From Novosphingobium resinovorum (GTDB lineage Bacteria > Pseudomonadota > Alphaproteobacteria > Sphingomonadales > Sphingomonadaceae), in assembly GCF_001742225.1 (NCBI RefSeq), contig NZ_CP017075.1, forward strand, positions 2,852,001 to 2,916,000: a stretch of DNA of 64,000 nt, in the 5' to 3' direction. A program made the translations under genes and the position numbers. The notes beneath the pieces are model-generated. The model saw only the letters and a list, made by a program, of their open reading frames with translations, was not told the DNA's origin and did no database searches. Position 1 is the first letter of the stretch; each line of letters opens with the position of its first letter. Positions 13,573 to 57,604 of the stretch are shown here, piece after piece.

Positions 13573-13730
13573 TGCGATCTGTCCTCTCACTGCTGGGACG
13601 GCAAATTTAACCGCACGATTAAATTCTGGTGCGAGCTATCGCGTTCCTCTGCCTCGACGTCAAGCCTCGCTAAAGCGCTAAGAGCTTGCGACGGGAAAAG
13701 AGAAACTTCGCGCAACGCATACATGCAGAA

Positions 13731-43973: not shown

Positions 43974-44936
43974 TCAGATCGCGCCGCCGGTCAGCCGCTG
44001 GCAGATCAGGTCGAGCTGATCGAGCGTGGCATAGCGGATCGTCACGGTGCCGGTCGAAGGATCGGCATCGGCGCTGATCTTCACCGGCAAGCCGAGGAAT
44101 TCCTCGAGGTGGTTCTGCACCGCCGCGATGTCCGCATCCTCCGAACCACTCCGCGCCGCGCGTGCGGAACGGCGGGGTGCCACGTCGCCGCGCTGCTTCT
44201 TGCGCACCAGCTTTTCCACGTCGCGCACCGACATCTGCTTGGAGACGGCAGCCACCGCTATGTCCTCGGCGTCGTCGCAGCCGATCAGGGCGCGGGCATG
44301 GCCCATCGACAAATCGCCCTTCTCGACCAGCAGGATCACGCCGTCGGGCAGAGCGAGCAGGCGCTGGAAGTTGGCGACATGGCTGCGGCTCTTGTCGACC
44401 ATGCGGGCGATCTCCGCCTGAGTCATGCCCTCCAGTTCGGCAAGGCGGTTGTAGGCCCGCGCCTCTTCGATCGGATTGAGGTCCTCGCGCTGGAGGTTCT
44501 CGATCAGCGCCAGCGCCATGACCTCTCGGTCGGACAGTTCACGGACCAGCGCCGGAATCTCGTGAAGCTGCGCCTTCTGCGCCGCACGCCAGCGCCGCTC
44601 ACCGGCGACCAGCTGGTAACGGCCATTATCGAGCGGGCGCACGATGATGGGCTGGATCACCCCGCGCTGCGCGATCGACGCGGCGAGTTCCTCCAGCGCC
44701 GATTCCTCGAAATAGCGACGCGGCTGATGCGGATCGGGCTTGATGTCGGAGATCGACAGCACCGCCAGGCCACCGCGCGTAGGCGCGACCGTACCGCCCT
44801 CGCCCGTCGCCGGGACCGGCTCCTCGCGTCGGCTTTCGCCCAGCAGCGCGCCGAGGCCACGGCCAAGACCCTTGGGCTTCTGCCCGCCCGCCTTGGGCTG
44901 GGGTACGCTGAAGCGCACGATGGAGTCGTCGTTCAT
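43974..44936 (-). CDS. parB: Chromosome partitioning protein ParB
   Basis: A 320-residue CTP-dependent DNA clamp that loads at parS and spreads to organise the origin. The N-terminus has the KGLGRGLGALLGES motif of chromosomal ParB. The CTPase/ParB-N domain shows SDIKPDPHQPRRYF, PIIVRPLDNGRYQLVAGERR (the ERRWRAAQKA box) and ALALIENLQREDLNPIEEA. The parS-reading helix-turn-helix is MTQAEIARMVDKSRSHVANF, and a C-terminal dimerisation region (about 265-315) follows. Its start overlaps the parA stop by 4 bp. Seven parS-like sites lie within about 13 kb of the gene. Length is normal. Confidence 0.97.
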   Translation of the reverse strand: MNDDSIVRFSVPQPKAGGQKPKGLGRGLGALLGESRREEPVPATGEGGTVAPTRGGLAVLSISDIKPDPHQPRRYFEESALEELAASIAQRGVIQPIIVRPLDNGRYQLVAGERRWRAAQKAQLHEIPALVRELSDREVMALALIENLQREDLNPIEEARAYNRLAELEGMTQAEIARMVDKSRSHVANFQRLLALPDGVILLVEKGDLSMGHARALIGCDDAEDIAVAAVSKQMSVRDVEKLVRKKQRGDVAPRRSARAARSGSEDADIAAVQNHLEEFLGLPVKISADADPSTGTVTIRYATLDQLDLICQRLTGGAI

Positions 44937-45709
44937 GCCGCTTTCCTCTTTTCGGGCAATCGGGTGATCAGCTCGCGCGCGAGCGCCATGTAGGCGCGGC
45001 TGCCGGCGCAGGCGTGATCGTAGATGAGCGCCGGAACCCCATGGCTCGGCGCTTCGGAGAGGCGCACGTTGCGCGGAATGACGGTCTCGAACACCAGCTT
45101 GCCCAGCACGGAGCGCACGTCGTCTGAGACCTGTTCAGTCAGACGATTGCGGCGGTCGTACATGGTCAGCGCGATGCCGATAATGCCGAGATCGGGGTTG
45201 AAGCGCTGTTGCACCCGCTCCACCGTCTGCAGCAGCTGGCTGAGCCCCTCGAGCGCGAAGAACTCGCACTGCAGCGGCACCAGCAGGGTATCGGCGGCAT
45301 TGAGCGCGTTGAGCGTCAGCAGGCCCAGCGAGGGCGGGCAGTCGATCAGGCAGACGTCGTAGCCGAGGTCCGGGGTCAGCGTGCGCTGCAGGCGATGCGC
45401 GCGGTCGTCGGCGCTGACCAGTTCGACCTCGGCCCCGGACAAGTCCACCGTCGCGGGCAGCAGATCGAGATTCGGAATCCGCGTCGGCATGACGCACTGC
45501 GACACCGGCACCTTGTCGACGAGCACGTCGTAGGACGACGCTCCGCGTTCCGAGGCCCCGACCCCGATTCCCGTGGATGCGTTGCCCTGCGGGTCGATGT
45601 CGATCAGGAGTGTCTTCCACCCGGTAGCGGCAAGCGCGGTCGCGACATTGATTGCCGTCGTCGTCTTTCCGACGCCGCCTTTCTGGTTGGCGATGGCAAT
45701 GCGAATCAC
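44933..45709 (-). CDS. parA: Chromosome partitioning ATPase ParA
   Basis: A 258-residue deviant-Walker ATPase that moves ParB-parS complexes by a diffusion-ratchet on the nucleoid. The deviant Walker A is NQKGGVGKTTTAINVA with both lysines (K10 and K15). LLIDIDPQGNASTGIG gives the switch I aspartate, and VCLIDCPPSLGLLTLNAL is Walker B. VIPRNVRLSEAPSHGVP is the usual C-terminal signature. The start codon is GTG at 45709, overlapping the rsmG stop by 4 bp, and the stop overlaps parB by 4 bp. Thus rsmG-parA-parB are translationally coupled. Confidence 0.97.
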   Translation of the reverse strand: MIRIAIANQKGGVGKTTTAINVATALAATGWKTLLIDIDPQGNASTGIGVGASERGASSYDVLVDKVPVSQCVMPTRIPNLDLLPATVDLSGAEVELVSADDRAHRLQRTLTPDLGYDVCLIDCPPSLGLLTLNALNAADTLLVPLQCEFFALEGLSQLLQTVERVQQRFNPDLGIIGIALTMYDRRNRLTEQVSDDVRSVLGKLVFETVIPRNVRLSEAPSHGVPALIYDHACAGSRAYMALARELITRLPEKRKAA

Positions 45710-46347
45710 CCGATCTTACCCTTCCCGTCGGCAAGGGTGCCGACAATGATGCCCGCCTGCGGGTCCGTCAGGGACTGTTCCACGTGGAACACATGCCGCC
45801 ACTTGCGAAGGTCCTGCAATTCTTGACCGGCAGACCGCCCTTTGGGCAACAGGAACACGGTGTCACTTGTGGAAAATCGCGCGGATAACGTCAGCAATTT
45901 GTCGAGAGGCGCAAAAGCACGCGCGGAGATGACGGCTGCCTGACGACTTTCGACCAGTTCGAGGCGTTGTCCGGCAATCGAGGCGCGATCGAGTCCCATC
46001 GCGATTCGCGCGCGGTCGAGCCATTCGATTCGCCGCGCGCGCGATTCGACCATCACCACTTCGCATTCGGGCCGAAGCGCCGCGATCACCAGCCCTGGAA
46101 ATCCCGCGCCGGTTCCAAGGTCCATCCAGGGCGTCGATGTTTCACGTGGAACATGCGGCAGCAACTGCGCGCTATCGACAATATGCCTCAGCCAGACCTG
46201 ATCTAGACTGGCGGCCGATACGAGGTTCTGGCGCTGGTTCTCTTCCGCCAGCATGGCGACGAGCAGTTCCAGTCGCTCCATTGCCATCGCATCGCATTCG
46301 GGCAGCGCACGCAGCCATTCGCGCGCCTCATCTTCGGTCGTGATCAC
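45706..46347 (-). CDS. rsmG: 16S rRNA (guanine527-N7)-methyltransferase RsmG
   Basis: A 213-residue SAM-dependent methyltransferase (GidB) acting on G527 of 16S rRNA; loss causes low-level streptomycin resistance in other bacteria. The SAM site is [18 protein letters not shown], followed by [16 protein letters not shown] and [17 protein letters not shown]. The start is GTG 46347, overlapping the mnmG stop by 4 bp; the stop overlaps parA by 4 bp. Two parS sites (45776-45791 and 46138-46153) lie within the gene, one of them encoding part of the C-terminal HVFHVEQ segment. Confidence 0.95.
45776..45791. other. parS site 3 (perfect)
   Basis: TGTTCCACGTGGAACA, the full ParB consensus palindrome, inside rsmG near its 3' end and about 0.8 kb upstream of the parB start. 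Confidence 0.93.
46138..46153. other. parS site 4 (hybrid arm)
   Basis: TGTTTCACGTGGAACA inside rsmG: one arm of the TTTCAC type and one of the GTGGAA type, both accepted by ParB. Confidence 0.88.
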
Positions 46348-48191
46348 GCGGCCTCCCTGCGGGCATGGACAAGCAACGCCGCCAGCGCCGCCGGAGTGAT
46401 TCCCGGAATCCGTCCTGCTGCCGCTAGGGTCGCGGGACGCGCCCTCGTCAGCCGCTCAACCATCTCGCGGGAGAGGCCGGCGATCCGGTCGTAAGGAAAA
46501 TCGTCGCCGAGGCTCAGCGCTTCGCTGGCGCGCAAGTCCCGCAGTTCGCGCTCCTGCCTTTCAAGGTAAGGCGCATAAGCCGCGTCCTCGGCCATCTCCT
46601 CGACGAGATCGGCGTCGGCGCGAAGGGTGGGATCGATCCACGGCGACAGCCCGGCCATATCGACACCGCCGAAGCGCAACCATTCGCGCAGCGGCAGACG
46701 CCCGGCATCGGAGCGAACCGGCAGTCCCGCCGCCGCCAGTTCAGTCGAGGCCAAGGGCGCATCGAACGCCTGGCCCAGAGCCGCCCTCGCCTCCTCGCGG
46801 CGAGCGAACCAGTCCCGGCGCGCAGCGGTCACGGCCCCGGCCTCGATTGCCAGAGGCGTCAGGCGAGTCGTCGTATTGTTGGCGCGTAGACGCAGACGAT
46901 ACTCCGCGCGCGCGGTCAGCATGCGGTAAGGCTCGCTGACGCCGTGCAGCGTAAGGTCGTCGACCATCACCGCCATGTAGCTGTTCGCCCGGTCGAGCGC
47001 AGGCGCATCGCGGCCGAGCACGGAAGCCGCAGCATGAAGCCCGGCGACCAGACCCTGCGCGGACGCTTCCTCGTATCCGGTCGTGCCGTTGATCTGGCCC
47101 GCGCAATAGAGCCCGGGAATCTCGCGCAGTTCCAGACTGGTCCGCAAGGCGCGCGGATCGATGTGGTCGTACTCGACGGCATAGCCCGGCACGACCATTT
47201 CCACCGTCTCCAGCCCGTCCATTGTGCGCAGCATTTCCAGCTGTACGTCGGCAGGAAGAGAGGTGCTGATGCCATTGGGATAGACGAGGTGCGTCGTCAG
47301 CCCCTCGGGCTCCAGAAAGATCTGATGCCCGTCCCGGTCGGCGAAGCGGTGGATCTTGTCTTCGATCGAGGGACAGTAGCGCGGCCCCTGCGCCCCGATC
47401 GCGCCGGAGAACAGAGGGGACCGATGGAGGTTCGCGCGGATCACGTCATGGCTGCGCGGGTTGGTCCGGGTGATCGCGCAGAACACCTGCGGCACCGCGC
47501 GCCGCTGCTCCATCGGCGACATGGTCCAGGCCTCGCCGTCCGAAGGCTGCTCGCCCAGACGTGACCAGTCGATGGTGCGCCCGTCGAGCCGGGGCGGCGT
47601 GCCGGTCTTGAGCCGCGCCATCGGCAGCGCCGCATCGCGCATCTGCGCGGCGAGCCGCTGCGCCGATGCCTCGCCGATGCGACCCCCGACCAGACGCTCC
47701 TCACCCCGGAACAGCGTGCCGCCGAGGAACGTGCCGGTGCACAGGATCGTCGCGGGCGCGCTCAGCCGGGTGCCGTCGGCAAGATCGACACCGACCGTGC
47801 GGCCGCCTTCGAGCACCAGCGCAGACGCTTCACCAGCGACGAGCGTGAGATCGCCCTGCTCCTTGAGCAGCCGCTGGATCGCCGCCTTGAACAGTACGCG
47901 ATCCGCCTGCACGCGCGGGCCCTGAACCGCACTGCCCTTCGACCGGTTGAGCATGCGATAGTGAATCGCCGCTGCGTCCGCCGCTCGCGCGATCAGTCCG
48001 TCGAAGGCATCGACCTCGCGCACGAGATGGCCCTTGCCCAGTCCGCCGATCGCCGGGTTGCAGCTCATCGCCCCGACCGCGTCGAGGTCGAAGCTGACGA
48101 GCCCCACGCGCGCGCCCATGCGGGCGGCCACTGCCGCCGCCTCACAGCCGGCATGGCCGCCGCCGATCACGATCACATCGAAGGAGTGCAT
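46344..48191 (-). CDS. mnmG: tRNA uridine-5-carboxymethylaminomethyl modification enzyme MnmG
   Basis: A 615-residue FAD protein (GidA) that with MnmE installs cmnm5 or nm5 groups on U34 of several tRNAs. The FAD-binding [18 protein letters not shown] lies at the N-terminus. The family signatures [33 protein letters not shown] and [20 protein letters not shown] follow, with the helical MnmE-binding C-terminal domain at about 540-612. Length is normal. It is upstream of rsmG (4-bp overlap) in the classical origin cluster mnmE-mnmG-rsmG-parA-parB. The 67-bp gap before it carries a perfect parS site. Confidence 0.97.
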
Positions 48192-48238
48192 GACGTCGCC
48201 TTACCGCGTCGCGGATTTCACGTCAAAGCACCTCGGCA

Positions 48239-48254
48239 TGTTCCACGTGGAACA
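48239..48254. other. parS site 5 (perfect)
   Basis: TGTTCCACGTGGAACA in the 67-bp gap between mnmE and mnmG; the only intergenic copy in the core cluster. Confidence 0.93.
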
Positions 48255-48258
48255 TCGC

Positions 48259-49536
48259 TCATTTTCCAATGCAGAAGCGGGCGAACAGAGCGTCGAGCAT
48301 GTCCTCGGTCGTCGCCCGGCCGACGAAACCATCGAACGCCACGCGCGCGCGGCGCAGGCACTCCGCGACCAGCAACGGGTCGGTCTCATGCCGTGTCGCG
48401 CGCAAGGCCAGTTCGGCATCGGTCAGCAACGCATGCTGCCGCGCATTGAGGGCCGCATCACCGGGTCGCGGCATCGCGTGCCGCGCAGTCTCGATAAGGT
48501 CATCGCGCAGGGCATCGAGGCCCTCGCCGGTCACCGCTGAAATCGCATGGCGCGCAGCCGGGTTCGGCCGAGCTGAGGGTGTGTCGATCTGCGGGGTCAC
48601 TTCCCACGCCGCGTCAGGCCCCTCCCCCGCCGCTCCAAGCCACAGCACGAGGTCGGCACGGTCCAACGCCGCACGGGCGCGATCGATACCGATCGCCTCG
48701 ATCACATCGTCCGTGTCGTCGCGCAGACCGGCAGTGTCGGCGAAGACGAACGGCACGCCGCCGATCGCGACGGCGCGCGTCAGGACGTCACGGGTGGTTC
48801 CGGCCAGTGGCGCGGTGATCGCCGCCTCGTCGTCTACCAGCGCATTGAACAAGGTGCTCTTGCCTGCGTTTGGCGGACCGGCCAGCACCACGCGAAAGCC
48901 CTCGCGCAGAGTCTCCGCGCGGGGACGCGAGAGCCAGTCGGACACTTCGGTCGCCAGGGCGTCGATGCGAGCGATGAAGTCGGCAGGGAGGTCCGCGACA
49001 TCGTCTTCATCCCCGAAATCGAGAACCGCCTCCACCGACGCCGATGCGGTGAGCACTCGCATGCGCCAGTCATCCACCTGCCGGGACAAGGCCCCGCCCG
49101 CCATGGCGATGGCGCTGCGCCGCTGCAGTTCGGTCTCGGCCGAGAGCAGGTCGGCCAGCCCCTCGGCCTCGGCAAGATCGATGCGGCCATTGGCGAATGC
49201 ACGGCGGGTGAACTCCCCCGGGACGGCGCGGCGCAAACCGGGAAGATCGGCCAGTGCCCCCTCGACCGCAGCGACGACGGCCTTGCCACCATGCAGATGC
49301 AGTTCGGCCAGGTCCTCGCCGGTTGCCGTGTTCGGCCCGGGAAACCAGAGAACAAGCGCATGGTCGAGCACTGTTCCACGTGAAACACTCAGGCGCTTAT
49401 AGCTGGCGCGACGCGGTGTGGGGATGGCCCCGGCAAGGCTCGACAGCGCCTCGCCGGCTCTCGGTCCGCTTATCCGGATTACGGCGATGGCGGCAGGCGG
49501 AGAGCCGCTGGAAAGCGCGAAGATCGTATCGTCCAT
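48259..49536 (-). CDS. mnmE: tRNA modification GTPase MnmE
   Basis: A 425-residue GTPase (TrmE), partner of MnmG in wobble-uridine modification, using a folate one-carbon unit. The N-terminal folate-binding domain begins DDTIFALSSGSPPAAIAVIR. The G domain (about 215-350) shows VLAGPPNAGKSTLFNALV (G1), PLAGTTRDVL (G2) and FADTAGLRD (G3). The C-terminal tail ends FCIGK, with the conserved cysteine of the CxGK motif. It is slightly short relative to the usual 440-450 residues. A parS site (49372-49387) lies in the N-terminal coding region. First gene of the minus-strand origin cluster; DUF6489 is next upstream. Confidence 0.97.
   Translation of the reverse strand: MDDTIFALSSGSPPAAIAVIRISGPRAGEALSSLAGAIPTPRRASYKRLSVSRGTVLDHALVLWFPGPNTATGEDLAELHLHGGKAVVAAVEGALADLPGLRRAVPGEFTRRAFANGRIDLAEAEGLADLLSAETELQRRSAIAMAGGALSRQVDDWRMRVLTASASVEAVLDFGDEDDVADLPADFIARIDALATEVSDWLSRPRAETLREGFRVVLAGPPNAGKSTLFNALVDDEAAITAPLAGTTRDVLTRAVAIGGVPFVFADTAGLRDDTDDVIEAIGIDRARAALDRADLVLWLGAAGEGPDAAWEVTPQIDTPSARPNPAARHAISAVTGEGLDALRDDLIETARHAMPRPGDAALNARQHALLTDAELALRATRHETDPLLVAECLRRARVAFDGFVGRATTEDMLDALFARFCIGK
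49372..49387. other. parS site 6
   Basis: TGTTCCACGTGAAACA within mnmE, one TTCCAC arm and one GTGAAA arm; full core CACGTG with conserved ends. Confidence 0.88.
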
Positions 49537-49573
49537 ATGCCCGCCCTCCCCTAGCAGGGAGGCGAAGCGGACG

Positions 49574-49834
49574 CTACTCGCCCTTCTTTGGCTTGGCGCC
49601 GCTCATCGCCATGGCCACGCCGTTTTCGAGGAACTGCTGAAACAGCTTCAGCCCCATCTGCCCCATCGGCGCGACCTGCTTGGCCAGCTCGTTCATCTGG
49701 TCGAAGTTGGTGGTGCCTTGCATCGCGTTGGTCAGCGCATCGACGTAAGCCTCGTTCGCACGGGTGACGTCGGGCAGGCCGAGGAAACGGCGCGCCTCTT
49801 CAGGGGAGCATTCGACCTCGACATTGACCTTCAT
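49574..49834 (-). CDS. DUF6489 family protein
   Basis: An 86-residue protein of a family found mainly in sphingomonads. It begins MKVNVEVECSPEEARRFLGLPDV, a pattern resembling the regulatory subunit of phasin/PHB-related small proteins, and ends with a helix rich in Met and Gln (APMGQMGLKLFQQFLENGVA) and a lysine tail. There is no signal peptide, so it is cytosolic. The function is unknown. It lies 37 bp upstream of mnmE on the same strand and could be the first gene of the origin-cluster transcript. Confidence 0.8.
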   Translation of the reverse strand: MKVNVEVECSPEEARRFLGLPDVTRANEAYVDALTNAMQGTTNFDQMNELAKQVAPMGQMGLKLFQQFLENGVAMAMSGAKPKKGE

Positions 49835-49935
49835 CGCTCGGCTCCCGCTGAATTATCGCAGCATGACTGACACATGCGCTTGGCAAAGTCCAATCCAAGT
49901 GCCTTACTCGCCGCAAAGCGAACAGGAGAACAGAC

Positions 49936-50634
49936 ATGGCCACGAACACCGAGATTCCCACCCTCGACGGTGACGGCACCTTCCCTGCTTACGTCGCCGC
50001 TCCCGAAGGCACGCCGCGCGGCGCGATCATCGTGCAGCAGGAAATCTTCGGCGTGGACGAAGGCATCCGCCGCAAGGCCGACCAGTGGGCCGCGAAAGGG
50101 TATCTCGCAGTCGCCCCTGACACGTTCTGGCGGCAGAAGCCGGGCATCGAGCTGAGCCCTTACGTAGAGGCGGAAATGCAGGCCGCGCTGGGCCATATGA
50201 TGAGCCACGACTTCGACCTCGGCATGCGGGATATCGAAGCCGCGATCCACTGGATCCGCCGCGAGAAGCAGGTCGAGAAAGTCGGCTTCGTCGGCTTCTG
50301 CATGGGCGGCAAGATCGCTTACATGGCCGCCGCGCGGACCGACATCGACGCCTCGGTCGGCTACTACGGCGTGATGATCGACCAGATGCTGAACGAGAAG
50401 CACGCGATCGCCCGCCCCCTCATGCTGCATATCCCCACCGCCGACCACTTCGTCAGCCCCGAAGCGCAGAAGGCGATGCACGAAGGACTGGACGATCACC
50501 CGAAGGTCACGCTGCATGACTACGAAGGGCTCGACCATGGCTTCGCGGCTGAGATAGGTGCGCGCCGCGACGAGGCCGGCGCCGAACTTGCCGACGGTCG
50601 CACCGAAGCCTTCTTCGCCGCGCACATCGGCTGA
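49936..50634 (+). CDS. Dienelactone hydrolase family protein
   Basis: A 232-residue alpha/beta hydrolase of the dienelactone hydrolase family. The nucleophile elbow is GFCMGGKIAY with a cysteine, as in true DLH. The acid residue is expected near the IPTADHFVSPE segment and the histidine is in LDHGFAAEIG. QQEIFGVDEGIRRKADQWA, with its glutamate after QQ, matches the family's active-site helix. The Shine-Dalgarno AGGAGA is 7 bp before ATG. It is 11 bp upstream of a quinone oxidoreductase gene, so a two-gene unit is likely. No aromatic-degradation genes surround it, so the substrate is unknown. Confidence 0.9.
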   Translation: MATNTEIPTLDGDGTFPAYVAAPEGTPRGAIIVQQEIFGVDEGIRRKADQWAAKGYLAVAPDTFWRQKPGIELSPYVEAEMQAALGHMMSHDFDLGMRDIEAAIHWIRREKQVEKVGFVGFCMGGKIAYMAAARTDIDASVGYYGVMIDQMLNEKHAIARPLMLHIPTADHFVSPEAQKAMHEGLDDHPKVTLHDYEGLDHGFAAEIGARRDEAGAELADGRTEAFFAAHIG

Positions 50635-50645
50635 GAGGACGGGAC

Positions 50646-51614
50646 ATGACCAGCAGCTATCGCATGATCGTGCGCGCCCACGGTGGCCCGGAAGTCATCG
50701 AGCGGGAGGACTTCGCGATCCCGTCGCCTGCTCCCGGCGAAGTGGTAATCGAGACCGAAGCGGTCGGGCTCAATTTCATCGATACCTATTATCGCAAGGG
50801 CCTCTACCCCGATGCCCTGCCGATCAGCCTCGGCTCCGAGAGCGTCGGGCGGATTGTCGCAGTGGGCGAAGGCGTCGCCGACCTCGCGGTGGGTGACCGC
50901 GTCGGCACGACGCAGAACGGCGGGGCCTATGCCACGCATCGCGCGATCCCCGCCGCCAAGGCCATGCGCATCCCTGAAGGCGTCGCACCCGAAATCGCCG
51001 CCGCCGTGATGCTCAAGGGGCTGACTTCCTGCTATCTGGCCGAAGACACCTTCCCCGCGAAGGCGGGTGACGTCGCGCTCGTGCATTCCGCGGCAGGGGG
51101 CGTGGGCTCTCTGCTGGTGCCCTGGCTGCTCGACAAGGGCGTGACGGTGATTGCACACTCGGGCAGCGCCGAGAAAGCCGCGCAAGTGCCGGGAGAACAC
51201 TCGCTGCACTGCCCCTTTGCCGAACTGCCCGAGGCGGTACGGGACATCTCCGGCGGGGCCATGTGCAACGTCGTCTACGACGGCGTCGGCGCCGCAACCT
51301 GGGAGGCGTCGCTCGCCTCGCTGCGCAAGCGTGGGATGATGGTCAGCTATGGCAATGCGTCTGGCACGGTGCCGCCGATCGCATTGCTCGATTTGATGCG
51401 AGGGGGATCGCTCTACGTCACCCGGCCGACGCTGGCGGACCATGTAGCGACGCCCGAACTGCTGGCGGCGAGCGCGAAGAAGCTGTTCGATCGGATTGCT
51501 TCGGGAGTGCTGAAGCCGAAGATCGGGCAGACCTTCGCTCTGAAGGACGCAGCGGATGCGCATCGGGCTCTGGAGAGTCGGTCGACGACGGGATCTACGA
51601 TCCTGGTTCCGTAG
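50646..51614 (+). CDS. qor: Zinc-independent quinone oxidoreductase (NADPH:quinone reductase, MDR family)
   Basis: A 322-residue medium-chain dehydrogenase of the QOR type. The GroES-like N-terminal domain has VGLNFIDTYYRKGLYP and LGSESVGRIVAVGEGV, and zinc-ligand cysteines are absent. The Rossmann domain shows VHSAAGGVGSLLVPWLLDKG, where the AAGGVG pattern marks NADPH use. It ends KIGQTFALKDAADAHRALES. It probably reduces quinones by one-electron transfer. Coupled with the dienelactone hydrolase gene upstream and terminated by a bidirectional hairpin. The symbol follows family resemblance. Confidence 0.88.
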   Translation: MTSSYRMIVRAHGGPEVIEREDFAIPSPAPGEVVIETEAVGLNFIDTYYRKGLYPDALPISLGSESVGRIVAVGEGVADLAVGDRVGTTQNGGAYATHRAIPAAKAMRIPEGVAPEIAAAVMLKGLTSCYLAEDTFPAKAGDVALVHSAAGGVGSLLVPWLLDKGVTVIAHSGSAEKAAQVPGEHSLHCPFAELPEAVRDISGGAMCNVVYDGVGAATWEASLASLRKRGMMVSYGNASGTVPPIALLDLMRGGSLYVTRPTLADHVATPELLAASAKKLFDRIASGVLKPKIGQTFALKDAADAHRALESRSTTGSTILVP

Positions 51615-51626
51615 AAGCAGGCAGGA

Positions 51627-51654
51627 TAAATCTGGGGCCACTGCCCCAGATTTA
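51627..51654. terminator. Bidirectional intrinsic terminator
   Basis: TAAATCTGGGG and CCCCAGATTTA pair perfectly over 11 bp around CCACTG, between convergent qor and the TerC gene. A close relative is at 41008-41026. Confidence 0.85.
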
Positions 51655-51664
51655 TCTCTCAATC

Positions 51665-52402
51665 TCAAAAAAGCGTGATAATTCCAAGGGTTGGATCAGT
51701 CCACCCCTCATAGATCATCTTGACCGCGACATAGAGGATCACGGCAAGCCCGACCCATCCGATCCAGCGATACCGCTCGATGTACCGCGCAATGAAATTC
51801 GCGGCGAGGCCCATCATCGCCACCGCAACGATCAGGCCGACGATGAGGATACCGGGATGCTCCCGCGCGGCACCGGCCACGCCGAGCACGTTATCGATCG
51901 ACATCGACACGTCCGCCACCGCCACCGAAATGGCGGCTGAAGCGAAGCTTTTGGAAGGCGCGAGACCGGAGCGTTCGTCGCCCTCGATCTCGGGCGAGCC
52001 GACGGAATGCTCGCCCACCGGGCTATGGTGCAGTTCGCGGTACATCTTCCACGCGACCCACAGCAGCAACAGGCCGCCGGCGAAGACGAGGCCGACTATG
52101 CCCAGCAGCCAGGTCACCACCAGCGCGAAGCCGATGCGCAGGACCAGCGCGGCGAGGACACCGATGGCGATGACCTTCTTGCGCTGGTCTGCCGGGAGCC
52201 CCGCCGCCAGTGCGCCGACGACGATCGCGTTGTCGCCCGCAAGGACGACGTCGATCATCAGCACCTGGAGGAACGCGGAAAGCGCCGCCGGGGTGCCGAT
52301 GTTCGCAAAGTCGGTGACGATGTGGTGCCAGATCTCCGCCGGGCTCTGGATACCCCCTGCCGCTTGGGGTGCTGCGGCAAGGATCGTCAGGATATCCAAC
52401 AT
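51665..52402 (-). CDS. TerC family integral membrane protein
   Basis: A 245-residue multi-span membrane protein. The family signature VVLAGDNAIVVGALAAGLP and its repeat-like partner VSMSIDNVLGVAGAAREHPG, each with an acidic D-N pair inside a membrane helix, are clear. Spans are visible at VLAALVLRIGFALVVTWLLG, IVGLVFAGGLLLLWVAW, ILIVGLIVAVAMMGLAANFI and WVGLAVILYVAVKMI. Relatives export manganese or confer tellurite resistance. The C-terminus points to the YjbE/YkoY side of the family, so metal export is the likelier role. The stop faces qor; the start is 15 bp from rho on the same strand, so it may be co-transcribed with rho. Confidence 0.9.
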   Translation of the reverse strand: MLDILTILAAAPQAAGGIQSPAEIWHHIVTDFANIGTPAALSAFLQVLMIDVVLAGDNAIVVGALAAGLPADQRKKVIAIGVLAALVLRIGFALVVTWLLGIVGLVFAGGLLLLWVAWKMYRELHHSPVGEHSVGSPEIEGDERSGLAPSKSFASAAISVAVADVSMSIDNVLGVAGAAREHPGILIVGLIVAVAMMGLAANFIARYIERYRWIGWVGLAVILYVAVKMIYEGWTDPTLGIITLF

Positions 52403-52417
52403 CGTCTCCCCGGGCGC

Positions 52418-53674
<1,257 letters not shown>

Positions 53675-53870
53675 TTTCGTGAATTCCAGATGGATTTGTA
53701 GTGTCGGCCGGCGGGATCGATGGGCTTGGGGAAAGCAGATCCAGGCAGGAGACAAAGGCTCGCGCCCTGTTGCCGGAACGCCGCTCAGATACGCATTCGC
53801 GGCGGCTCGGTCAACGAGTCAATCCGCAGGGCGGCAGGCCGGTGGGGTGAATCGAAATCGAGGCGCGAAA

Positions 53871-53952
53871 GCCCACCCCCAACCCCTCCCGCAAGCAGGA
53901 TGGGAGCGAGACTTGCCGAGCCGAAGGCGAAGCTAGTCGCAGCGGGGTGGGC
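53871..53952. repeat. Intergenic repeat, CCCACCCC...GCGGGGTGGG family (copy 2)
   Basis: Same outer ends (GCCCACCCC and GCGGGGTGGGC) and the same inner GCGAGACTT...TAGTCGCAGCG segment as 361-469. The central hairpin here is diverged (CCTCCCGCAAGCAGGATGGG). It begins immediately at the stop of the next minus-strand gene. Confidence 0.75.
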
Positions 53953-54288
53953 CTAGCGAGCGCCCTCGTACTTGTCCTTCCAAGTCTCGAACTGCCCTGC
54001 GAGCGGGTCCAGCTGGGCATGACAGCGCGCCTTGTCGGCCTGATAGGTCTGTGCCCCGTACCCCGGCGCCTCGAGGATCGCGTCCAGCGCGGCAGTGATG
54101 TCCAGTTGCGGGGAACGCGCCTGAATCCGGCCGAAGTAGTACAGCGCGCCGCCGTCCACTTTCGTCCGCAAGTCCCCCTGCACCTTCCCGGCCGCAACCG
54201 AGAGATAGGCCAGACAGTGAAGATCGTCCTGATCTGCCTGCGGCAGCGCGGAGAGAGACAACGCGGCGGCAAGCAGGGAAACGATCAT
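53953..54288 (-). CDS. Small exported protein, function unknown
   Basis: A 111-residue protein with a cleavable signal (MIVSLLAAALSLSALPQA). The mature part has two cysteines (LHCLAYLSVAAG and KARCHAQLDP) that could form a disulfide. A conserved-looking VDGGALYYFGRIQARSP stretch and a helical rest follow. I do not recognise the family; similar hypothetical proteins sit beside hemJ in related genomes. ATG 54288 is used; a GTG at 54291 precedes it. It lies 13 bp downstream of hemJ, so the two are probably co-transcribed. Confidence 0.6.
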   Translation of the reverse strand: MIVSLLAAALSLSALPQADQDDLHCLAYLSVAAGKVQGDLRTKVDGGALYYFGRIQARSPQLDITAALDAILEAPGYGAQTYQADKARCHAQLDPLAGQFETWKDKYEGAR

Positions 54289-54301
54289 CACTTCACTCCG
54301 T

Positions 54302-54742
54302 TCAGAACGGCTTCACGACCACCAGAATGACGATCACCACCGCCGCCAGGCCCGGAACCTCATTCAGGAGGCGCAGCTTCTTGCCGGTCAGCGGCCGCTC
54401 GCCGCGCGCCAGCTTCTTCGCATAACCGACCAGCCAGCCGTGATAGCCCGAGAGAGCCACCACGAAGAGCAACTTGGCATGAAGCCACCCTTGATCGAAC
54501 GCACCGATCGAAAGCGCTGTAAGCACCCCCAGAACCCACGTGAGCACCATCGAGGGCGTCAGGATGATCGACCGCAGCTTCGCCTCGCGATCGACCCAGC
54601 GCGCTTCCTCCGCCGAGCCGGGATCGCTCTCCTGGTGATAGACGAAATAGCGCGGCAGCATGAACAGCCCCGCCATCCAGAAGATCACGAAGATGACGTG
54701 CCCGGCCTTGAGCCAGGGATAGAGACTTGCGAGAATTGCCAT
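54302..54742 (-). CDS. hemJ: Protoporphyrinogen IX oxidase HemJ
   Basis: A 146-residue, four-span inner-membrane protein (UPF0093) that oxidises protoporphyrinogen IX to protoporphyrin IX. It replaces HemG/HemY in most alphaproteobacteria. The conserved histidine lies in LKAGHVIFVIFWMAGLFMLP. Other conserved blocks are RYFVYHQES, SMVLTWVLGVLTAL, WLHAKLLFVVALSGYHGWL and RLLNEVPGLAAVVIVILVV. It is directly downstream of hemE (45-bp gap), so two heme-synthesis steps are encoded together next to the chromosomal origin, as in other alphaproteobacteria. Confidence 0.92.
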   Translation of the reverse strand: MAILASLYPWLKAGHVIFVIFWMAGLFMLPRYFVYHQESDPGSAEEARWVDREAKLRSIILTPSMVLTWVLGVLTALSIGAFDQGWLHAKLLFVVALSGYHGWLVGYAKKLARGERPLTGKKLRLLNEVPGLAAVVIVILVVVKPF

Positions 54743-54787
54743 GGTGGAAGCCCTTTAGCGCGTCGTCATGCCAGTCTCAACCGAGAC

Positions 54788-55813
54788 TCAACGCTCCCAG
54801 CTGCGAACGATCGCCAGCAACTGCTCGACATTCGCGATCGGGGTGAACTGGCCGATGCCGTGGCCGAGGTTGAACACGTGGGGACGGTCCGCGAATGCGT
54901 CAAGCACCGCGCGGGCCTGCCGGTCGAGGTCCTCGCCGCCCGCCAGCAGGAGCAGCGGATCGAGATTGCCCTGCACCGGCAGCCCTTGGGGAAGTTCGCG
55001 CGCGGCCCAGATCGGGTCGATGGTCTCGTCGATTCCGACCGCGTCGACTCCGGTTTCGCGGGCATAGGCGGGAAGTTTCTCGCCCGAGCCCTTCGGGAAG
55101 CCGATGATCGGAGTCTCGGGGTGACGCGCCTTCACGGCAGCGGTGATCGCGGCATTGGGGGCGATCACCCAGCGCTCGAACTGCGCGGGCGAGAGACTGC
55201 CTGCCCATGAATCGAACAGCTGCACCGCTTCGGCGCCGGCCTCGATCTGGCCGCACAGGTATTCCACGGTCACCTGAATCACCGCATCGATGATTGCTCC
55301 GAAGGCGCCCGGATCGCGATAGGCCATGGCGCGGGTGTCGTGCTGGTCGCGACTCCCCTCGCCTGCCACCATGTAGGTCGCGACGGTCCAGGGCGAACCG
55401 GCGAAACCGAGCATCGTCTTGTCGCTATCGAGCGCCACGCGAACCTTCCGCACGGTCTCGTAGATCGGCGAAAGACGCTCGGGCACCTGAGTCAGCCCCT
55501 CCAGCGCATTGTCCACAAGCCGGGGAGTCAGTTTCGGCCCCTCTCCGGCGAGGAACTGGAGGTCCTGCCCCATCGCGTAAGGCACGATGAGGATGTCGGA
55601 GAACAGAATGGCGCCATCGAAGCCGAAACGGCGGATCGGTTGCAGGGTGATCTCGGCGGCGGCGTCCGTATCGTAGACGAGCGCGAGAAAACCGCCCTTT
55701 TCGGCGCGCAACTCGCGGTATTCGGGCAAGTAGCGGCCAGCCTGGCGCATGAGCCACAGCGGCCGCCTGCGCGCGTTGTTTCCGCGCAGAGTTTCGAGGA
55801 GGATTCCGGGCAT
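54788..55813 (-). CDS. hemE: Uroporphyrinogen decarboxylase
   Basis: A 341-residue TIM-barrel enzyme that converts uroporphyrinogen III to coproporphyrinogen III. The signatures are RRPLWLMRQAGRYLPEYREL near the N-terminus and SDILIVPYAMGQDLQF. GFAGSPWTVATYMVAGEGS and VQLFDSWAGSLSPAQFERW follow, with GNLDPLLLLAGGEDL later. ATG 55813 is used; a TTG at 55831 precedes it. It is transcribed away from the adjacent AT-rich origin region. In Caulobacter hemE directly borders the replication origin and a hemE-side promoter takes part in initiation control, so this neighbour is informative. Confidence 0.97.
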   Translation of the reverse strand: MPGILLETLRGNNARRRPLWLMRQAGRYLPEYRELRAEKGGFLALVYDTDAAAEITLQPIRRFGFDGAILFSDILIVPYAMGQDLQFLAGEGPKLTPRLVDNALEGLTQVPERLSPIYETVRKVRVALDSDKTMLGFAGSPWTVATYMVAGEGSRDQHDTRAMAYRDPGAFGAIIDAVIQVTVEYLCGQIEAGAEAVQLFDSWAGSLSPAQFERWVIAPNAAITAAVKARHPETPIIGFPKGSGEKLPAYARETGVDAVGIDETIDPIWAARELPQGLPVQGNLDPLLLLAGGEDLDRQARAVLDAFADRPHVFNLGHGIGQFTPIANVEQLLAIVRSWER

Positions 55814-55825
55814 CGCGTCACGTCC

Positions 55826-55855
55826 CAACAAAAAAAATAGAAATTTTATATAAGG
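55826..55855. other. AT-rich candidate unwinding element of oriC
   Basis: A 30-bp stretch with an eight-A run and TTTTATATAA, nearly all A/T in a 66% GC genome, at the hemE edge of the gap. Confidence 0.6.
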
Positions 55856-55875
55856 ATGATGGAGTCTGTTGGCCC

Positions 55876-55884
55876 TGTGGATAT
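55876..55884 (-). promoter_or_regulatory. DnaA-box-like 9-mer 1
   Basis: TGTGGATAT, i.e. ATATCCACA on the minus strand; 8 of 9 to TTATCCACA. Confidence 0.55.
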
Positions 55885-55984
55885 CGGGGATTGGCTCGCC
55901 TTGCCCGATTTACCCCCGGATGAACAGATTGAAGAGTCAGATGCGACTCTTGGACGAGAGTGAGTCAACGAAAGGTTGTTCGCC

Positions 55985-55993
55985 TTGTCCACA
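55985..55993 (+). promoter_or_regulatory. DnaA-box-like 9-mer 2
   Basis: TTGTCCACA; 8 of 9 to TTATCCACA. Confidence 0.6.
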
Positions 55994-56120
55994 GGGTGTG
56001 GGAAGAGTCGGCCCGCCTGTCCAGAAACTGACTCGGTGAATCCCCATAGCGGGCAGGAAATGCCGCTGAGGAGTTTTCACCGAGTTGTCACCGGGCTCCT
56101 CCCATGGTTTATGCCGCCAC

Positions 56121-56129
56121 ATATCCACA
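56121..56129 (+). promoter_or_regulatory. DnaA-box-like 9-mer 3
   Basis: ATATCCACA; 8 of 9, 31 bp before the ppsR start. Confidence 0.55.
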
Positions 56130-56159
56130 CCCCTTGCCCTTCGGAGGCCCTGAGCCGGC

Positions 56160-57008
56160 ATGGCGCGTTTCCACCTGCACCTCCTGTCAGATTCCACCGG
56201 CGAAACGCTGGAGATGATCGCCAAGGCGGCCCTCGCGCAGTTCGACGACGACGGTGAAGTCCTGCGGCATTTCTGGCCGATGGTCCGCTCGCAGCAGCAC
56301 CTCGATCGGATCATGGGCGAGATTTCCGCGAACCCGGGCCTCGTCTTCTTCACCCTGGTCAACGAGGAGACGCGCGGGCGCCTCGAAGAGAGGTGCCAGC
56401 AACTCGGCCTGCCAGCGATCGCGGTGCTCGACGGGGTGACCGACGCGCTCGAGGCGCTGCTGGGGCAGGAGGCGAAGGGACGTCCGGGCCGCCAGCACCG
56501 GCTCGACGACGCCTATTTCGCGCGCGTCGATGCGATCCAGTTCACCATTGCCCACGACGATGGCGTTTTGTGGGAAGAGTGGGAGGAAGCCGACATCCTG
56601 CTCGCCGGGGTGTCGCGCACCAGCAAGACGCCGACCTCGATCTACCTCGCCAATCGCGGGTACAAGGTGGCGAACATTCCGATCGTCGTCGAAAGCCCGC
56701 CGCCGCAGATGCTGTTCGGGCTGCGCCATCCGCTGGTGGTCGGCCTGACGACCGCGCCCGATCGGCTGATCCAGATCCGCCGCAACCGCCTGCTCTCGCT
56801 CAGCCAGTCGCCCGACACCGACTATGTCGCGACCGATGCGGTGGAGAGCGAGCTGAAATATGCGCGGCGCATGTTCGCGGACAATTCCTGGCCGGTGATC
56901 GACGTCACCCGCCGCTCGATCGAGGAGACCGCCGCGGCGGTGATCAACCTCTATAACGAACGCAAGGCGGCGGGCCAGACCGGCCAGGTCGGCCCGAAGC
57001 CCATCTGA
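56160..57008 (+). CDS. ppsR: Pyruvate, water dikinase regulatory protein (kinase/pyrophosphorylase, DUF299)
   Basis: A 282-residue bifunctional enzyme that phosphorylates and dephosphorylates phosphoenolpyruvate synthase or pyruvate phosphate dikinase, using ADP and Pi. The N-terminus (ARFHLHLLSDSTGETLEMIA) is a DUF299 hallmark. The P-loop-like LAGVSRTSKTPTSIYLANRG and the NIPIVVESPPPQMLFGL block follow, and the C-terminal SWPVIDVTRRSIEETAAAV completes the pattern. It is the first gene to the right of the predicted origin, as in Caulobacter. It is 11 bp from maf and likely heads the ppsR-maf-aroE-coaE transcript. Confidence 0.93.
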   Translation: MARFHLHLLSDSTGETLEMIAKAALAQFDDDGEVLRHFWPMVRSQQHLDRIMGEISANPGLVFFTLVNEETRGRLEERCQQLGLPAIAVLDGVTDALEALLGQEAKGRPGRQHRLDDAYFARVDAIQFTIAHDDGVLWEEWEEADILLAGVSRTSKTPTSIYLANRGYKVANIPIVVESPPPQMLFGLRHPLVVGLTTAPDRLIQIRRNRLLSLSQSPDTDYVATDAVESELKYARRMFADNSWPVIDVTRRSIEETAAAVINLYNERKAAGQTGQVGPKPI

Positions 57009-57019
57009 CAGAGTTTTCC

Positions 57020-57604
57020 ATGATCGTTCTTGCATCCCAGAGCGGCTCGCGCCGCGCCATGCTCGAAGCGGCGGGCATCGCCTACCGCGCCCAGCCCGCC
57101 CATGTCGACGAACGCGGGATCGAGGCGGCGCTCGGCGATGCCTCCGCGCCCGAAGTCGCGTTGGAACTCGCGAAGGCAAAGGCCCTGAATGTTTCACGTG
57201 AAACATCGGGTGCGGTCGTGCTCGGTAGCGATTCCCTCGTGTCCTGCGGTGAGCGGCGGTTCGACAAGCCCGCCAGCCGGGAGAACGCGGCCGAGCATCT
57301 GCGCTTCTTCTCGGGTAAGGTGATGGAGCTGCACAGCGCGGCTGCCCTCGTGCGCGATGGCGAAGTGCTCTGGGCGGAGAACGCGGTGGCGCAGTTGCAT
57401 GTCGCGGATTTGTCCGATGCCTTCATCGAGAGCTACCTCGACGCGGAATGGCCCGAAGTCGGTGCCTGCGTCGGCGTCTTCCGGATCGAGGGACGCGGCG
57501 TGCAGCTGTTCGAGAAGATCGACGGCGACTATTTCACGATCCTCGGCATGCCGCTGCTCAAGGTGCAGGCGGCGCTGCGCGGATTGGGAGTCCTGACGCG
57601 ATGA
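57020..57604 (+). CDS. maf: Maf family nucleotide pyrophosphatase
   Basis: A 194-residue house-cleaning pyrophosphatase of the Maf family, which hydrolyses non-canonical or certain canonical NTPs. It begins MIVLASQSGSRRAMLEAAGI, where the usual SxSPRR motif reads SQSGSRR, so the proline is replaced. Catalytic-base aspartates are expected in GSDSLVS, and KPASRENAAEHLRFFSGKVM and EVGACVGVFRIEGRGVQLF match the family. A perfect parS site (57190-57205) lies within the coding region. It overlaps aroE by 4 bp. Confidence 0.9.
   Translation: MIVLASQSGSRRAMLEAAGIAYRAQPAHVDERGIEAALGDASAPEVALELAKAKALNVSRETSGAVVLGSDSLVSCGERRFDKPASRENAAEHLRFFSGKVMELHSAAALVRDGEVLWAENAVAQLHVADLSDAFIESYLDAEWPEVGACVGVFRIEGRGVQLFEKIDGDYFTILGMPLLKVQAALRGLGVLTR
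57190..57205. other. parS site 7 (perfect, GTTTCACGTGAAAC type)
   Basis: TGTTTCACGTGAAACA inside maf, the only parS site to the right of the predicted oriC, about 1.1 kb from its right edge. Confidence 0.93.

Follow-up and report, generated by a model that had tools for sequence, protein, structure and literature searches.

Does the gap between the divergent genes hemE and ppsR hold the replication origin of this chromosome, and, if it does, which of its features look selected? The gap lies in the 64-kb stretch of DNA analyzed here (hereafter, the window; C1:2852001-2916000), which belongs to the 3,778,345-bp contig C1 of a 6.9-Mb genome in five contigs. An origin at this place is in itself expected; oriC on the hemE side is already known or predicted for Caulobacter and sphingomonads. 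The point of interest is instead the sites for the CcrM methylase, GANTC. Judged by sequence comparison, what appears new is that the CcrM sites of the origin look selected, one of them being nearly fixed among close relatives.

Anatomy and conservation of the hemE/ppsR gap

The hemE start codon begins at 55813 on the minus strand and ppsR begins at 56160 on the plus strand, leaving 346 bp of intergenic DNA (55814–56159), the predicted oriC. An earlier note on this DNA had described, in a gap of this length, an AT-rich tract, seven GANTC sites, and three DnaA-box-like 9-mers that each differ from consensus at one base, and a recount recovered every one of them in place. The AT-rich tract (55823–55855), a probable unwinding element, contains the most AT-rich 30-mers of the whole 64-kb window (26/30, starting at 55827, 55828, 55830, and 55831). 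Adjoining it is predicted DnaA box 1 (ATATCCACA, 55876–55884, minus strand); predicted box 2 (TTGTCCACA, 55985–55993, plus strand) and predicted box 3 (ATATCCACA, 56121–56129, plus strand, on the ppsR side) stand in conserved alignment columns, and all three are one mismatch away from TTATCCACA. No terminators were found in the gap, and its comparison with Rfam gave a single match, at chance level.

The left boundary is hemE (54788–55813, minus strand; TIGR01464 over cut-off) and the right boundary is ppsR (COG1806/DUF299; 56160–57008, plus strand; NF003742 over cut-off), the product of which is 100% identical to PpsR of Novosphingobium resinovorum VKM B-1172. Beyond these lie hemJ and rho on the minus strand and maf, aroE, coaE, and dnaQ on the plus strand. 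The flanks had been read as hemE-hemJ and ppsR-maf-aroE-coaE-dnaQ, and profile matches agree, with hemJ (score 130.6, cut-off 138.05) and aroE (TIGR00507, score 198.7, cut-off 200.2) both just below threshold.

To compare related gaps, we collected the 110 best-scoring close loci (30 from matches in 136 genomes plus the best 80 of 183), a set that includes the window's own locus and near-duplicates. The divergent hemE-ppsR pair surrounds the gap in 107 of these 110 best-scoring loci, in all 20 loci from other families of the order, and in 32 of 40 loci fetched from elsewhere in the class; a position between divergent hemE and COG1806/ppsR is that of hemE-type alphaproteobacterial origins. Three loci had no hemE and one gap was 973 bp long; omitting these left 106 close gaps, and dropping a further five that were near-identical gave an alignment of 101. 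Because the 106 are the best-scoring gaps, we also examined a held-out set of 20 more distant members of the same family that had not been used in finding the site described below.

The TGTGGA of DnaA box 1 is present in the left part of 100 of the 101 best-scoring close gaps examined. Two further blocks are conserved, TGCCCGA (55902–55908; exact in 82 of the 106 best-scoring close gaps) and TCCCGTGGTTTAT (here TCCCATGGTTTAT, 56100–56112, adjoining DnaA box 3; exact in 86 of the 106), and each is found in 0 of the 20 other-family gaps.

Evidence for a chromosome origin

At least three DnaA boxes occurred in 0 of 2000 dinucleotide shuffles of the gap, and at least seven GANTC sites in 3 of 2000. 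We also scanned 141,252 overlapping 346-bp segments (10-bp steps in 72 stretches, ~1.44 of 3.78 Mb or about 38% of the chromosome). Within the ~1.44 Mb sampled, the hemE/ppsR gap is the sole place with at least three one-mismatch DnaA boxes, and at least seven GANTC per 346 bp are found in the gap and at C1:2913291 and nowhere else. The gap accordingly pairs an AT-rich tract with several DnaA boxes, as hemE-type alphaproteobacterial origins do, and its three-box cluster is unique in the sampled chromosome.

Beside the gap lie parB (43974–44936, minus strand; TIGR00180, PF02195, PF17762, and PF23552 over cut-off) and a gene for a parA-type ATPase (44933–45709, minus strand; PF13614 over cut-off), for which the name parA comes from its position beside parB and rsmG. 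All five mismatch-free matches in the genome to parS (TGTTYCACGTGRAACA) fall within about 11 kb, C1:2897776-2909205 (window 45776–57205), at 45776–45791, 46138–46153, 48239–48254, 49372–49387, and, inside maf, 57190–57205. When two or fewer mismatches are allowed, parS matches 15 places in the genome vs 4 for the reversed control. Such a pairing of parAB with clustered parS is again a property of hemE-type alphaproteobacterial origins.

Strand asymmetry was followed in stretches of the chromosome rather than the whole genome, with 60 evenly spaced 20-kb stretches for the octamer GGGNAGGG, which we take to be the E. coli form of KOPS. Across the 60 stretches the right arm has 116 forward and 10 reverse copies and the left arm has 16 and 138, and the cumulative counts turn in the stretch containing the gap and at ~0.9 Mb, roughly opposite, the predicted terminus. 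Cumulative GC skew is lowest at 2.71–2.92 Mb in a coarse sample and has a local minimum at 2.923 Mb in a fine one, 15 kb right of the gap; the octamers switch at 2.9326–2.9338 Mb, 25 kb right of the gap, and all ten octamers from 2.908 to 2.932 Mb are still of the left-arm type. The earlier note expected GC skew to turn at about 55.9 kb; in the stretches sampled the turn is near that position, displaced to its right.

The note had named a turn elsewhere, for example near dnaA, as an outcome that would speak against it; in the stretches sampled the skew and octamers turn 15–25 kb right of the gap and not at dnaA. A dnaA gene (570-aa frame with a DnaA C-terminal domain) lies at C1:2.193 Mb, 715 kb away from the gap and inside one arm. 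Because the octamers stay at 8:47 from dnaA to hemE, with no change of polarity at dnaA, dnaA is not the turning point, and we rejected it as the origin. A second, shorter frame (261 aa) with a DnaA C-terminal domain is present in the studied genome (G000:C1:2323830-2324021).

The octamer break was also located in five single-contig genomes of relatives, with origin midpoints set from their gap loci. In G077 and G050 (the latter with only ten octamers) the best break is no more than about 80 bp away from the gap; in G005 it brackets the gap (−0.9 to +13.0 kb), and in G110, a member of the window's own genus, it lies at +13.6 to +18.4 kb, in the same direction as in the studied genome. G143, with only two octamers to the right of the gap, is uninformative. 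The strand-asymmetry turn is thus at the gap or encloses it in three of the five relatives and is shifted in G110.

Taken at face value, the offset could mean that the gap is an ordinary divergent promoter region and that the real origin lies somewhere else, such as ~25 kb farther right or at dnaA, a reading to which the octamer switch with its ten left-arm octamers, the skew minimum, and the equally shifted break (14–18 kb) in G110 all lend something. We consider it highly improbable, however, given that the sampled DNA from 2.918 to 2.958 Mb is without any three-DnaA-box segment, that the mismatch-free parS sites are at 2.898–2.909 Mb, that in three of five relatives the octamer break lies at this same gap or encloses it, and that dnaA is inside one arm. 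Because no three-box segment was found there, we read the 15–25 kb offset as a change in the window's genus rather than as another origin. Box uniqueness in the sampled chromosome, parS clustering, the nearby strand-asymmetry turn, and the conserved gene pair support the view, first put forward in the note, that the gap is oriC: it is almost certainly the DnaA-dependent origin of the 3.78-Mb chromosome, which is that of a Novosphingobium closely related to N. resinovorum.

Comparison with known origins

CtrA boxes were sought as TTAA-N6/8-TTAA, which we take to be the form of the box, and IHF sites as a consensus pattern in what is presumably its usual form. The gap has 0 full CtrA boxes and no TTAA at all, and a full box is found in 1 of the 106 best-scoring close gaps, 1 of 20 other-family gaps, and 1 of 20 held-out family gaps. 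No match to the IHF consensus within one mismatch occurs in the gap, and an exact match in 1 of the 106 best-scoring close gaps. Exact DnaA boxes are present in 4 of the 106 best-scoring close gaps, in 8 of the 20 held-out family gaps, and in 15 of the 20 gaps from other families of the order. The sole window match to TTAA-N6/8-TTAA is at 13607–13622 (shuffle mean 0.01). A spacing of seven, TTAA-N7-TTAA, is the CtrA pattern in the excerpted text of PMC4287350.

The note had stated that the Caulobacter origin lies beside hemE in the same context, and passages of PMC1914354 bear this out: the hemE/COG1806 origin is established in Caulobacter. Like the gap studied here, Cori of Caulobacter crescentus lies between hemE and the COG1806/ppsR gene, is AT-rich, and has DnaA boxes (PMC1914354 and PMC8959179, in part), and it contains several GANTC sites (a passage of PMC3973325). 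Five CtrA boxes and an IHF site are also present in Cori (same part of PMC1914354), unlike this gap, where neither kind was found; a near-fixed GANTC is not mentioned in these portions of the Caulobacter literature. Among sphingomonads, excerpts of PMC4059872 report for Novosphingobium sp. PP1Y an oriC predicted beside hemE with three DnaA boxes, although that origin is also close to a dnaA gene, which here is far away, and excerpts of PMC4741004 report for Sphingopyxis granuli TFA an oriC predicted beside hemE with conserved boxes and an unwinding element; the string 'GANTC' is absent from the text of PMC4741004. The origin and control regions of repABC chromids are likewise rich in GANTC, and a link to methylation has been proposed for them (PMC6090056, in part), but their initiator is RepC, not DnaA. 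Among titles and abstract openings of mostly non-subscription literature, we found no report of a fixed CcrM site in sphingomonad origins or of GANTC enrichment around oriC.

GANTC density at the origin

GANTC is rarer than chance over the window (157 sites vs a mean of 329) and dense in the gap. The 106 best-scoring close gaps contain 558 sites in 35.9 kb, or 15.53/kb, vs 2.33/kb outside the gap in these loci, a gap/flank ratio of 6.65 for which the baseline is flanking DNA without gene calls. Among 15 other palindromes of the form XYNY'X', TANTA alone (63 sites) has a higher gap/flank ratio. Shuffling the close gaps 100 times gave a mean of 165.9 and a maximum of 192 GANTC sites vs the 558 observed. 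Among the 77 loci at least 10 kb long, no other same-length segment has more GANTC than the gap in 57, and the gap ranks in the top 5% in 66, with 11 outside it. The held-out family gaps also have the density: GANTC occurs in 20 of 20, with 86 sites in 6.6 kb (13.0/kb).

The excess extends beyond the gap. Within 20 kb around the origin this chromosome has 67 GANTC sites, vs a mean of 27.9 and a maximum of 55 in 51 far stretches, and in eight relatives the corresponding total is 342 vs 177.5. All eight have more sites in the origin stretch than in two far stretches on average; in G110 one of the far stretches is richer than the origin stretch (40 vs 37). In this genome and the eight relatives, the 20 kb around the origin have about double the GANTC density of distant DNA, and the near/far ratios of 15 control palindromes are 0.90–1.19 in the relatives and 0.82–1.36 here. 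Separately, eight GANTC sites fall within 500 bp of hemE coding DNA (window 55031–55529), a density that averaged related loci do not have.

Elsewhere in the class, the gaps of CcrM-positive genomes have GANTC at 6.1/kb vs 2.2/kb (n = 28). As a class-wide pattern this was rejected: 5 of the 28 CcrM-positive gaps have no GANTC and other palindromes are equally frequent. Nor does the presence of CcrM separate the gaps cleanly, because three CcrM-negative gaps (CcrM being taken as absent from the lack of a match) carry 3, 1, and 2 sites.

Alphaproteobacteria that have CcrM are known to be enriched in GANTC between genes; might the excess be merely an instance of this? A mean intergenic over-representation above 1.5-fold is given in a passage of PMC3973325, and the comparison made here is with flanking DNA, without gene calls for an intergenic baseline. 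Set against this are the 6.7-fold excess over the flanks and the near-fixation of one site among freely varying columns, and we think intergenic enrichment improbable as the whole explanation. We also rejected the idea that the cluster is part of the ppsR promoter, as it persists in five genomes of genus g13 that have no match to ppsR; there, six to nine GANTC sites lie within 300 nt upstream of hemE. In these loci (L293-L297) the next frame after the hemE-side gap is maf-like, the name maf being our own reading. One GANTC in the g13 hemE-side gap runs into TTCACAG, an end like that of a DnaA box.

A nearly fixed CcrM site

The seven GANTC sites of the gap differ in how well they are kept across the 101 aligned close gaps. 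The site at 55862–55866, with the AT tract on one side and DnaA box 1 on the other, is kept in 54; that at 55934–55938 recurs at the same column in fewer than 8; that at 55962–55966, which overlaps a conserved GTCAA, in 35; those at 56005–56009 and 56030–56034 in 8 each; and that at 56038–56042 in 18. The site at 55945–55949 is kept in 98 of the 101 aligned best-scoring close gaps, within CGA[C/A]TC at 55944–55949, and the three rows without GANTC at the aligned place have another at most about 20 nt farther right. Across the six columns the counts are C 99, G 99, A 100, C 70/A 30/G 1, T 99, and C 101 of 101, and the flanking columns show weak or no base preference.

With a tree built by FastTree from the adjoining ppsR DNA, parsimony assigns the five fixed positions of the motif 2, 1, 1, 2, and 0 changes and the N position 14, and the columns on either side (55939–55943 and 55950–55961) 23–48 each. 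Conservation as such is unremarkable, because a quarter of the gap columns have four or fewer changes; what is unusual is an isolated island in the shape of GANTC. The CGAMTC form is itself common, one orientation of it making up about 41% of the GANTC sites in the sampled chromosome, so the point is its fixation at one place.

CGANTC starts 66–68 nt from the TGTGGA of box 1 in 96 of 100 best-scoring close gaps. On its other side is the conserved GTCAA (55964–55968; TTGAC on the minus strand): both motifs were found in 93 close gaps, and in 82 of these nGTCAA begins 18–19 nt beyond the point where CGANTC begins. The orientation is CGANTC in 101 of the 106 best-scoring close gaps, with the inverted GANTCG in four and AGACTC in one.

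A strict site fixed across the whole family is not supported. CGANTC lies 67–69 nt from TGTGGA in only 5 of the 20 held-out gaps, and TGTGGA was not found in the left part of 13 of them. Some CGANTC or GANTCG is present mid-gap (offset 110–205) in 19 of the 20, which is weak evidence, because a flank of this kind accompanies 67% of the GANTC sites in the chromosome. With GANTC in all 20 held-out gaps and the strict spacing in five, the dense cluster holds in the held-out set and the strict site is a feature of the window's closer relatives. In 20 gaps of other families the fixed CGANTC site was not seen, and 5 of the 20 have no GANTC. On these comparisons the CcrM sites of the origin look selected.

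What might read the site

The genome encodes a RAMA-domain (CcrM-type) protein at C1:990336-990632, close to the predicted terminus, and a GcrA-family protein; a RAMA domain is found in 148 of 149 family genomes. The selected look of the sites makes it about an even chance that CcrM methylation is read at the origin, GcrA being one candidate for the reader.

In E. coli, oriC has Dam GATC adenine-methylation sites among its DnaA boxes, and SeqA reads them. The arrangement here is alike in having adenine-methylation sites among DnaA boxes, by analogy only, the methylase and the motif both differing from CcrM and GANTC. We know of no SeqA-like reader in Alphaproteobacteria. The role of SeqA at the E. 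coli origin is treated in the excerpted part of PMC2865523.

By the order of events in Caulobacter and E. coli, DnaA would bind the inverted box beside the AT tract and further boxes to its right, the tract would open, forks would set off in both directions, and the new origins would be segregated by ParB bound at the parS sites close by. If CcrM acts late in the cycle, as it does in Caulobacter according to a passage of PMC8116508, oriC would be hemimethylated longest after firing, until CcrM acts. A protein sensing GANTC methylation, GcrA being the first candidate, might then act at 55945, and the mark would either tune re-initiation or promote transcription that crosses the unwinding region in the direction of hemE.

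The stronger version of methylation reading is that in this group, whose origins are without CtrA boxes and mostly without consensus DnaA boxes, CcrM methylation is the cell-cycle mark that times initiation, through GcrA or an unknown hemimethylation reader at the near-fixed CGAMTC, as an alphaproteobacterial counterpart of Dam/SeqA. This we offer tentatively and hold to be rather unlikely. Excerpts of PMC3973325 report that CcrM over-expression leads to extra chromosomes in Caulobacter and that initiation control is normal without CcrM, and according to part of PMC11514494, CcrM depletion or over-expression in Agrobacterium affects ori2 and not the DnaA-dependent ori1. As far as those passages go, CcrM is dispensable for initiation control in Caulobacter, whose origin has CtrA boxes, and Agrobacterium ori1 is unresponsive. 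Origins that have no CtrA boxes and have one nearly fixed CcrM site, at a constant distance from DnaA box 1, are well suited to reopening the question of whether initiation is timed by GANTC methylation, and a single 5-bp site with a freely varying N position is its own built-in control.

Alternatively, CGAMTC might be part of a minus-strand GcrA/sigma-70 promoter from which transcription would cross DnaA box 1 and the AT tract and enter hemE, a reading that overlaps in part with methylation timing. The minus-strand core of the conserved site, GAKTCG, is the core of the GcrA motif YGAKTCK/G (PMC7987155, in part); TTGAC is kept upstream on the same strand; the orientation of CGANTC is the same in 101 of the 106 best-scoring close gaps; and the GANTC cluster outlasts the loss of ppsR in g13. 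Moreover, GANTC between −10 and −35 marks a class of Caulobacter cell-cycle promoters (excerpt of PMC4287350), and hemE transcription is important for Caulobacter replication (excerpt of PMC8959179). However, of the −35 and −10 elements that would frame GANTC in a GcrA-activated promoter, TTGAC is kept and no conserved −10 was found in the close-gap alignment, the gap has no sigma-70-type consensus promoter match, and the Y of the motif precedes GAKTCG in only 28 of 101 aligned close gaps. Nor is the module enriched genome-wide: as a recurrent promoter, TTGAC-N13/14-GAKTCG was rejected, with 7 occurrences in the genome vs 5 for the reversed control. A GcrA promoter toward hemE is possible, on balance doubtful.

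It may also be that CGAMTC is bound by a protein indifferent to methylation and that its GANTC is incidental. The preceding C is kept in 99 of 101 gaps, N is C or A in 100 of 101, which is stricter than the CcrM motif requires, and the orientation is mostly fixed, all of which would suit such a binder. Yet the other GANTC sites of the gaps are in excess, though at differing places, the N position toggles 14 times, and the enrichment of GANTC over 20 kb around the origin is inexplicable by one binding site; we judge this explanation unlikely. Apart from the GANTC sites and the boxes, the gap has a 10-bp inverted repeat, at 56031–56040 and 56076–56085.
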